Assembly (NCBI RefSeq): GCF_901538265.1
Contig: NZ_LR593886.1
Span: 5,601,738-5,665,737, forward strand
Direction of reading: 5' to 3'
From: Gemmata massiliana
Lineage (GTDB): Bacteria > Planctomycetota > Planctomycetia > Gemmatales > Gemmataceae
DNA length: 64,000 bases
Below, piece after piece: positions 46,071 through 48,425 of this stretch (its first letter is position 1; every line of letters starts with the position of its first letter). The position numbers were made by a program, and so were the translations under genes. The notes beneath the pieces were generated by a model. The model saw only the letters and a program-made list of their open reading frames with translations, searched no databases and was not told the DNA's origin.

Positions 46071-47180
46071 TCAGTCCGCAGAGCACAACGCGCGGTAGAG
46101 GGTGTGAATGAAGCCGGCGTTGTCGTTCTGGAGGTAGTGCATCGCACCGCCCATGCGCGAGTAACTCTTACAGAACCGCAGGTAGTACGCGGGGTTGGTT
46201 TTCGGTGGCTCGCCCTTCGTCCAGTCCCAGTTCCCGCCGTCTTGGAGGTCCACCACAAAGAGCGAGTGGTCCTTCACCACGTCGCGCCCGCTCTGGAGCC
46301 GCAAGTTGTTCACGCAACTGATGCTCTTCTCGAACACCTGCGGCCCCATAATCGCTGAACCCACCGAGAGCACTACGCCCCCATCGAGCCCGTCGACCGA
46401 GCCACCGAACAGCTTGAAGTCCCACTCCGCCGCGCGCCCGATCGCCGAGCCGCTAAACACCGGGTGGTTCGAGATGATGTCGTACCCGATACCGGGGTGG
46501 ACCGTGACCGGGACGCCGTGTCGATACGCTTGAGCCAGAATCGATGCGTGCTTCCACTTGTGATCGATCCGCACGCGCCCGGCGGACCAGTTCTGCTCGC
46601 GCATCGCACGCAGTAAGTCCGCCCGCGCCGCGGTGAGCGGGTGAGCGGGGTCGGCCGCGATGAGTCGCATCAGTTCCTCGATCGTGGGGAGCGTGACGCC
46701 ATCCTCGTGGATCAGCTTGCCAAGCGACACGCCGTAACCGAGGCCGTCCAGCGCGCCGGCCATGAGCGCGAGGTGAATCGTCGAAGCGGTCTCGTGCCAC
46801 GTCCCGAAGTGCCCGCCCGCGACGCCCATTTCGACGCTCTCGGTGCTCGCGCCGAACCAAGCGTACTCCCAATCGTGAATCGTACCCGCGCCGTTCGTCG
46901 CCAGGTGCGTGATCCACCCCGCGGCCATCATTCGTTCGAGAATGCTTGCGGCCCCGTTACGGAGCAGGTGCGCTCCGTAAATGAGCATCACGCTCGCACC
47001 GCGTGCGCGGGCCGCTTTAATTCGTGCCGCGCATTCGCGAATGAGAATCGCATTCTGCTCGGAACACGGCTTCGGCTCCGCGTCCGGGTTGATGAGGATG
47101 TCATCGGCGCGGGTCAGGCTTTCGCGCTGGGCGAGCGGGAACACCTTCAGTTGGCTCAGGTCCAGGGGTCGAACGGGCAC
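46071..47180 (-). CDS. Deoxyhypusine-synthase-like paralogue without the catalytic lysine motif
   Basis: This is a 369-residue protein with a GTG start and AGGAG 5 bases before it. Its order of segments follows the protein at 47196-48269. GASVMLIYGAHLLRNGAAS aligns with CGVILCLAGSLVSAGLKK, THLATNGAGTIHDWEYAWFG (91-110) with AIVSTGANIVDQDFFEALG, and AYRHGVPVTVHPGIGYD with AFKAEVPIFCPAFSD. This suggests the same NAD-binding fold. No SWGK motif is found near its C-terminus. The 15-base gap to the upstream gene implies co-transcription. It may be a partner subunit or a separate enzyme on an NAD-dependent amine substrate; the relation is inferred from visual alignment. Confidence 0.7.
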   Translation of the reverse strand: MPVRPLDLSQLKVFPLAQRESLTRADDILINPDAEPKPCSEQNAILIRECAARIKAARARGASVMLIYGAHLLRNGAASILERMMAAGWITHLATNGAGTIHDWEYAWFGASTESVEMGVAGGHFGTWHETASTIHLALMAGALDGLGYGVSLGKLIHEDGVTLPTIEELMRLIAADPAHPLTAARADLLRAMREQNWSAGRVRIDHKWKHASILAQAYRHGVPVTVHPGIGYDIISNHPVFSGSAIGRAAEWDFKLFGGSVDGLDGGVVLSVGSAIMGPQVFEKSISCVNNLRLQSGRDVVKDHSLFVVDLQDGGNWDWTKGEPPKTNPAYYLRFCKSYSRMGGAMHYLQNDNAGFIHTLYRALCSAD

Positions 47181-47195
47181 GACAACTCCTTCGGG

Positions 47196-48269
47196 TCACG
47201 ACACGGCGACGGGTTCGAGTAACCGGTTCCACTTGCGACCGGTACGGGCCTTCCACGAACCCTTGTGGTACGCATACCCGAAGATCAGCGGAACCGCCAG
47301 CGTTGCTTCGCTGTACACCATCTGCTCGAACGCGAGATCGACCTTGCCCCAACTTGATGCTTCCTTCAGCGTGCTCCCGGAGAGCGCGCCGTCGCGGACG
47401 TCCGCTATCGTCACCTGCACCGCGTACTTGTGCATGGGCACTTCCTGGCCCATCACGTCGGCCGCGACGACGATGTCTTGCGCGAAGTTCTTCGGCACCC
47501 CGCCGCCCACCATGAACAGGCCCGTCGTTGGGTTCGCGATCTTCAACTGCGTCAGTTCGTAGAAGTCCTTCGCGCTGTCCAGCGAGAGTTTCGGGCCGTC
47601 GCCCCGCGCGTGCTGGTGCGCGACCAACCCGAACCCCGCGGAGCAGTCCGAGAACGCCGGGCAGAAAATCGGCACCTCGGCTTTGAACGCCTCGTACACG
47701 ATGCTATCCGGGGTCTTGCACCCGTTCCGCTCCAGGTACGCGCCCATCGCCCGGATGTACTCGCGCGACGAGTGCGGGCGCGGCTCCAGTTCGTCCGCGA
47801 TCACGCGCGTGATATCGTCGCAGATGCGCAGTTCGTCCTCGTCGATGAGAGTGTCGTAGATCCGGTCGATGTGCAGGTCGCGCAACTCCGCGTCGAACAT
47901 CCCCGAGCGCAGTTTTTCCTCACCGACCCAGTGCCGGAACCCGAGCGCCTCGAAGAAGTCCTGGTCCACGATGTTCGCGCCGGTGGAAACGATCGCGTCC
48001 ACCATGTTACACCGGATCGCGTCGGCGAACACCTTCTTCAGCCCGGCACTCACGAGTGACCCGGCCAGGCACAGAATCACGCCGCAATCTTTGTCTCCCA
48101 CCATGCGGTGCGTGATGTCCGCAGCACGAGCCAGATCGCGCGCGGTGAACGCGGTCCGGCCCATCGCCTCGACCAGCGGCACCGGGTTGAATTTCGTGAC
48201 GTCGATGTGTTCGACGGGGGTGTGCAGGTAGTCCGTTTTCGTCGGCACGCGCGGCTCCGGTTCGGGCAT
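47196..48269 (-). CDS. Deoxyhypusine-synthase family protein with catalytic lysine
   Basis: This 357-residue protein is read from the ATG at 48269; six upstream codons fall in a hairpin U-tract and are excluded. It matches the deoxyhypusine synthase fold. Present are DCGVILCLAGSLVSAGLKKVFADAI, DAIVSTGANIVDQDFFEALG (NAD/substrate region), IFCPAFSDCSAGFGLVAH and GGGVPKNFAQDI. Near the end KEASSWGKVDLA corresponds to EAVSWGKI of eukaryotic deoxyhypusine synthase, whose lysine carries the aminobutyl group. Here that lysine is K309. Bacteria lack eIF5A, so the likely product is a polyamine such as homospermidine, or modification of another acceptor; this is inference. A second, lysine-less homologue follows 15 bases later. 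Confidence 0.88.
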   Translation of the reverse strand: MPEPEPRVPTKTDYLHTPVEHIDVTKFNPVPLVEAMGRTAFTARDLARAADITHRMVGDKDCGVILCLAGSLVSAGLKKVFADAIRCNMVDAIVSTGANIVDQDFFEALGFRHWVGEEKLRSGMFDAELRDLHIDRIYDTLIDEDELRICDDITRVIADELEPRPHSSREYIRAMGAYLERNGCKTPDSIVYEAFKAEVPIFCPAFSDCSAGFGLVAHQHARGDGPKLSLDSAKDFYELTQLKIANPTTGLFMVGGGVPKNFAQDIVVAADVMGQEVPMHKYAVQVTIADVRDGALSGSTLKEASSWGKVDLAFEQMVYSEATLAVPLIFGYAYHKGSWKARTGRKWNRLLEPVAVS

Positions 48270-48275
48270 AAAAAC

Positions 48276-48348
48276 GAAAAAAGCCACCCTGTTTGTCCGC
48301 TACGGGGCTGCCTTCCGGCAACAACCCGCCATTGCGAACAAGGGTGGC
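48276..48348 (-). promoter_or_regulatory. Leader hairpin with U-tract directly before start codon (attenuator or terminator)
   Basis: On the minus strand AGGGTGGC/GCCACCCT arms (48341-48348 and 48283-48290) close a ~66-base structure. Further pairing continues inside (AAC/GTT; a GCCGGAAGGC tetraloop stem). The right arm is followed by TTTTTTCGTTTTT, ending one base before the ATG at 48269. This is the form of a rho-independent terminator, yet it lies where the ribosome site should be, and no Shine-Dalgarno sequence is seen. It may end transcription from the DTW gene or act as a conditional leader for the deoxyhypusine-synthase-like pair. Confidence 0.7.
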
Positions 48349-48425
48349 TGAACGAACCGAATCTTACCCCCTACCTCCCAACAGTCAAGGCCGCCATCAC
48401 CCGAGTAACTACGAAGCCACCCGGT

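Follow-up and report, generated by a model that had tools for sequence, protein, structure and literature searches.

The window, by which we mean the whole 64,000-nucleotide stretch of Gemmata massiliana DNA analyzed here, contains a structured hairpin on the minus strand between a DTW gene and a gene with a match to the deoxyhypusine synthase family (PF01916). The downstream gene also scores 590 bits against NF002699 (1,9-bis(guanidino)-5-aza-nonane synthase; cut-off 500), and by these profile matches it is a caldomycin-synthase-type (agmatine-coupling) relative rather than a true deoxyhypusine synthase; an initial annotation of this DNA had named the family correctly and differed in the exact type. 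The Thermus enzyme joins two agmatines to give caldomycin, a homospermidine precursor (PMC10981699), and the Thermus relative also lies above the NF002699 cut-off. Directly after the synthase-type gene is a gene for a GSU2086-family protein (46071-47180, minus strand), distantly related to ArgZ/ornithine cyclodeaminase, that adjoins the synthase-type gene in Gemmata-group loci (L086, L072) and is located elsewhere in Limnoglobus (L079). On the upstream side, an L-2-hydroxyglutarate oxidase gene (NF008726; 49256-50455, minus strand) is followed by the DTW gene, and neither appears to be linked to polyamines. The features of the leader region are listed in Table 1.

Table 1. Leader RNA, promoter and gene features, in window coordinates.
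Feature	Position	Strand	Basis
Sigma-70-type promoter TTGACT-16-TAAGAT; predicted transcription start ~48354	48361..48388	-	sequence; homologues
Whole structured leader RNA (match to models R1/R2)	48278..48350	-	folding; covariation
P1 5' strand AGCCACCC, sequence-conserved	48342..48349	-	sequence; conservation
P2 5' strand UGUUCGC, covarying helix	48334..48340	-	partition function; covariation; alignment-free test
Invariant core, 5' side AAUGGCGG	48326..48333	-	conservation
P3 apical hairpin GUUGCC-GGAA-GGCAGC; stem covaries, loop unconserved	48307..48322	-	folding; covariation
Invariant core, 3' side CCGUA	48301..48305	-	conservation; covariation analysis
P2 3' strand GCGGACA	48294..48300	-	partition function; covariation; alignment-free test
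P1 3' strand GGGUGGCU, base of terminator-like stem	48282..48289	-	sequence; conservation
U-run U6-CG-U5 after P1, intrinsic-terminator tail	48270..48282	-	sequence; homologues
Probable Shine-Dalgarno GGAG	48255..48258	-	sequence; six bases before GTG 48248
Caldomycin / 1,9-bis(guanidino)-5-aza-nonane synthase-type gene (deoxyhypusine synthase family), likely start GTG 48248	47196..48248	-	profile matches; N-terminus comparison

The hairpin and its inner GGAA stem, enclosed by P1, are present as originally described, as is the U-run (U6 at 48282-48277, CG, and U5 at 48274-48270) leading directly into an ATG (48269-48267). The plus strand from 48260 to 48360 folds at -40 kcal/mol (z -3.55, with none of 200 shuffles as stable), the mRNA (minus) strand with flanks (196 nt) has a z of -2.35 (4 of 200 shuffles), and the 73-nt RNA itself (48278-48350) reaches -43.4 kcal/mol compared to -24+/-6 for random 73-mers of the window, none of 300 of which equal it. 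Neither the window stretch (E up to 5) nor the RNA in five homologous loci (E up to 1) is overlapped by a match in Rfam 15. Judged from sequence and predicted folding, this hairpin is genuine: a structured RNA not catalogued before, with which the mRNA of a polyamine-making enzyme opens.

The ATG adjoining the U-run had been given weight as the start codon, with the Shine-Dalgarno sequence reported missing and the ribosome site replaced by the hairpin. This ATG is out of frame in the close relative G026 (L040), and we reject it as the start. An N-terminus of the form M-x-T-K-x-(D/E)-(Y/L)-L is common to the orthologues, and its window equivalent begins at GTG 48248 (GTG CCG ACG AAA ACG GAC, compared with ATG CCG ACC AAA GCC GAC in L048), and this GTG is the likely start of the gene. 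The mRNA leader is then ~105 nt long; with the likely start at GTG 48248 and the GGAG six bases before it, the ribosome site is not replaced by the hairpin, and the contact of the U-run with the ATG loses its importance.

Conservation and covariation of the leader RNA

Alignment of orthologous upstream regions, which had been proposed as a check of the hairpin, reveals that it is conserved with covariation. The consensus has a P1 of AGCCACC/GGUGGCU, a covarying P2, an invariant core RAUGGCGG/CCGUA, and a covarying P3; the apical loop is unconserved, leaving no special role for the GGAA tetraloop that had been singled out earlier. The core pairs (G-U, C-G, G-C and G-C) are bordered by an asymmetric internal loop and show no or hardly any variation across 36 distinct sequences. 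In the same 36 sequences 92% of paired cells can pair, as against 35-51% with slid partners, and P2 and P3 contain 113 double-changed cells versus 36.4+/-4.8 in shuffled controls, in an alignment that was fitted to the structure. Because of that fitting, P2 was also subjected to an alignment-free test, in which the true partners score above all 5000 shuffles. Some Phycisphaerae copies (L067, L094, L186) have lost the U-run or P1 and kept the core, the pattern to be expected were the core the part that functions.

Promoter placement and the terminator-like tail are likewise shared. The window promoter ends 11 bases ahead of the stem, between the DTW gene and the hairpin, and the distance from promoter end to P1 is 8-13 bases in most copies. 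A promoter with at least 9 of 12 matches is found at this place in 27 of the 41 homologous RNAs, compared to 0.3% of control stretches. The predicted start lies at the 5' edge of the hairpin; a start downstream of it would have counted against a leader RNA. The eight bases after P1 contain on average 5.6 T in the homologues (1.5 in background), and five or more are present in 33 of the 41 (1.4% of background), giving the G+C-rich stem and U-run of an intrinsic terminator. By a crude ORF call, about half of the loci probably have a divergent upstream gene. Given a promoter just 5' of P1, a U-rich tail and an often divergent upstream gene, the RNA is placed at the opening of the downstream gene's transcript.

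It is hardly credible that the hairpin is the ordinary terminator of the DTW gene: in the window that gene is co-directional and a hairpin with a U-run does follow it, but a promoter sits between the two, the core is conserved and covariation is evident in the stems, the upstream gene varies among genomes, its probable divergence in about half of the loci is incompatible with such a role there, and the association tracks the downstream gene, and we reject this as the main function. The earlier view that the element is more than a plain DTW terminator therefore holds.

Distribution and associated genes

A total of 41 copies was found in Planctomycetota, Verrucomicrobiota, Gemmatimonadota and Myxococcota. 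Thirty-three lie upstream of, and in the same direction as, a deoxyhypusine-synthase-family gene belonging to either of two subfamilies: 31 precede a caldomycin-synthase-type gene, and two (Sorangium L064 and verrucomicrobium L131) precede another deoxyhypusine-synthase subfamily. Six copies, all in Verrucomicrobia, are 5' of a TonB-dependent receptor, one is at a contig end in a genome that has the gene on a different contig, and one is an orphan in front of a DUF1559 gene (G017). Genomes already known as carriers have one copy each.

The association is closest in the Gemmataceae, where 15 of 95 genomes have the orthologue and the RNA is directly upstream of it in 12; the remaining three loci include one pseudogene and one cut contig. 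Among the 80 Gemmataceae genomes without the orthologue, only G017 has a clear copy of the RNA. It is also present in the other Gemmatales family, and 5' of orthologues in Phycisphaerae, Gemmatimonadota and Verrucomicrobiota. A search for the pattern AGCCACC-N-GCRATGGCGG-N-CCGTAGC, covering 257 Gb of bacterial and archaeal sequence, yielded 36 places, most with the full structure and 20 of them just 5' of an orthologue; the pattern demanded AGCCACC, and the invariance of P1 outside the protein-anchored loci is thus partly by construction. Eight pattern matches (L063, L075, L081-L084, L089 and L091) lack the structure and were dropped. Searches in Verrucomicrobiae and Phycisphaerae yielded further copies, and weak model matches with inverted-repeat- or coding-like character (L098, L050, L051, L055, L057 and L132) were left uncounted. 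A sample of 392 Planctomycetota genomes, passed through a coarse screening step, added just one weak match, indicating that the RNA is not widespread in this phylum. No such leader is present at the Thermus caldomycin synthase, in G031, at about half of the orthologues examined in Phycisphaerae or at most of the Gemmatimonadota ones, and phage records gave no match to the RNA.

Several individual loci are informative. In one relative (L052, G010:C1:6831972-6832036) only a remnant of the gene is left and the RNA core is lost (AATGGCGG has become AAGGCGG, and CCGTAGC has become CCGAGC), a natural knock-out of the unit; such joint decay would follow if that gene were the sole reason for keeping the RNA. 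The G017 orphan (L035, G017:C14:7949-8024) is perfectly conserved and is followed by a gene for a DUF1559 prepilin-like protein instead of a deoxyhypusine-synthase gene; it is a counter-example to the coupling of RNA and gene, perhaps through recent gene loss. A verrucomicrobial copy (L076:4392-4450, minus strand) similarly stands before a prepilin-like gene, with its core intact and P1 decayed. The Verrucomicrobia copies before TonB-dependent receptors (L073, L085, L092, L096, L097 and L129) precede one family of these receptors, which may reveal the ligand.

The counts also bear on whether the element could be an independent small RNA, transcribed from a promoter of its own to its own terminator, whose place beside the gene is accidental. 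The promoter, the terminator-like end and the intact G017 orphan are all compatible with this, but the 33 copies that sit immediately ahead of a deoxyhypusine-synthase-family gene in the same orientation, across four phyla, and the joint decay in G010 make it a very doubtful account.

A regulatory model and its alternatives

What we observe is a conserved, covarying structure that has a promoter placed ahead of it and a terminator-like tail behind it, and that accompanies polyamine-type genes in four phyla. We lean towards the reading that the RNA is a cis-acting 5' leader that would control the downstream deoxyhypusine-synthase-family gene by transcription attenuation, with the core as the sensor, probably of a polyamine or guanidino-polyamine. 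Transcription would begin a few bases ahead of P1, and P2, the invariant core and P3 would be the first to fold; as the P1 3' strand emerges P1 would close to form the intrinsic terminator stem, followed by the U's. The asymmetric core RAUGGCGG/CCGUA would act as the sensor, for whose ligand our best-supported guess is a polyamine or guanidino-polyamine of the pathway (agmatine, caldomycin, homospermidine or spermidine), and the result would be a compact riboswitch with its aptamer embedded in the terminator. Two results count against this model: many orthologues lack the RNA, and a competing GCCA:UGGC pairing, described below, receives almost no weight. The earlier suggestion of a metabolite- or polyamine-responsive attenuator fares well as regards attenuation, which is backed by the conservation and the start position, and as regards the link to polyamine genes; we infer the ligand, and likewise that termination would be regulated, that the binder would be a small molecule and not a protein, and that binding would turn the gene off (feedback) or on.

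A conserved, covarying 5' leader that accompanies the genes of one pathway is characteristic of riboswitches, the TonB receptor group being an exception here; together with the G017 orphan, these receptors may point to a ligand other than a polyamine. Judging from sequence and context, we probably have here a new RNA switch linked to polyamines. With somewhat less assurance, we suggest that it could represent a new riboswitch class present in at least four phyla and sensing one of the four polyamines or guanidino-polyamines named above, with a single-stem aptamer in an intrinsic terminator and unrelated to the only validated polyamine riboswitch that we encountered.

Two alternatives concern the mode of action. 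In the first, which we consider rather unlikely, the leader is a cis-acting attenuator whose core is bound by a protein (for example the enzyme itself or another RNA-binding protein) and not by a small molecule. The evidence of conservation, promoter and terminator fits this equally well, and brief invariant motifs within the internal loop of a hairpin are likewise typical of sites recognized by proteins, for instance in ribosomal-protein leaders; however, autoregulation by one product would not cover all copies, which precede two deoxyhypusine-synthase subfamilies and a TonB receptor. In the second, a 5' terminator-like hairpin would act constitutively, giving fixed read-through or protecting the mRNA 5' end without regulation. 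The stems are strong enough to fold unaided. Although GCCA, invariant in P1, is complementary to the core's UGGC, no GCCA:UGGC antiterminator was found, its pairing probability being near 0 in 39 truncated transcripts without the P1 3' strand (by partition function, for nested pairs in ligand-free RNA). A passive stem has no need for a core and P1 that are invariant across four phyla while P2 and P3 vary freely, nor for retention of the core in the few copies without U-run or P1, and we regard constitutive action as improbable.

The attenuation model finds a parallel in the HMP-PP (thiS motif) riboswitch, in which the aptamer lies inside the terminator and the decision is made in a narrow interval during transcription (PMC6478431). 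Both have a very small conserved element within a classic intrinsic terminator, at genes of one pathway in several phyla (PMC6478431), but they differ in sequence, fold and genes (thiamin there, the deoxyhypusine-synthase family or TonB receptors here), and the leader RNA described here is without an Rfam match and without a competing pairing found. The spermidine riboswitch, a SAM-I variant in which spermidine turns the gene off, was validated in 2023, natural polyamine riboswitches having been doubted before (PMC10853860). It too is a leader RNA with transcription termination before polyamine biosynthesis genes (PMC10853860), but it is a four-way-junction relative of SAM-I, whereas the RNA here is a single unbranched stem of ~73 nt without a SAM-I match in Rfam. 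The odc1 and potE motifs are similarly candidate RNA elements near polyamine genes (PMC8632094), although odc1 is a uORF-type element and potE is weakly supported; the main text mentions neither Planctomycetes, Verrucomicrobia nor deoxyhypusine synthase. Word searches of published surveys and reports likewise gave no occurrence of planctomycetes or hypusine. In the main texts of the open-access literature we found no deoxyhypusine-synthase, homospermidine or 'spermidine-II' riboswitch, and no paper tying a leader RNA to a bacterial deoxyhypusine-synthase-type gene.

Available for this RNA family are a covariance model, 41 copies and a small set of candidate ligands. If the attenuation model is correct, the family would be the second of its kind beside the SAM-I-variant class, unrelated to it, very compact and placed before deoxyhypusine-synthase-type enzymes. 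It would then offer a direct way into the bacterial control of unusual polyamines, homospermidine among them, in Planctomycetota and Verrucomicrobiota, phyla in which little is known of gene control.
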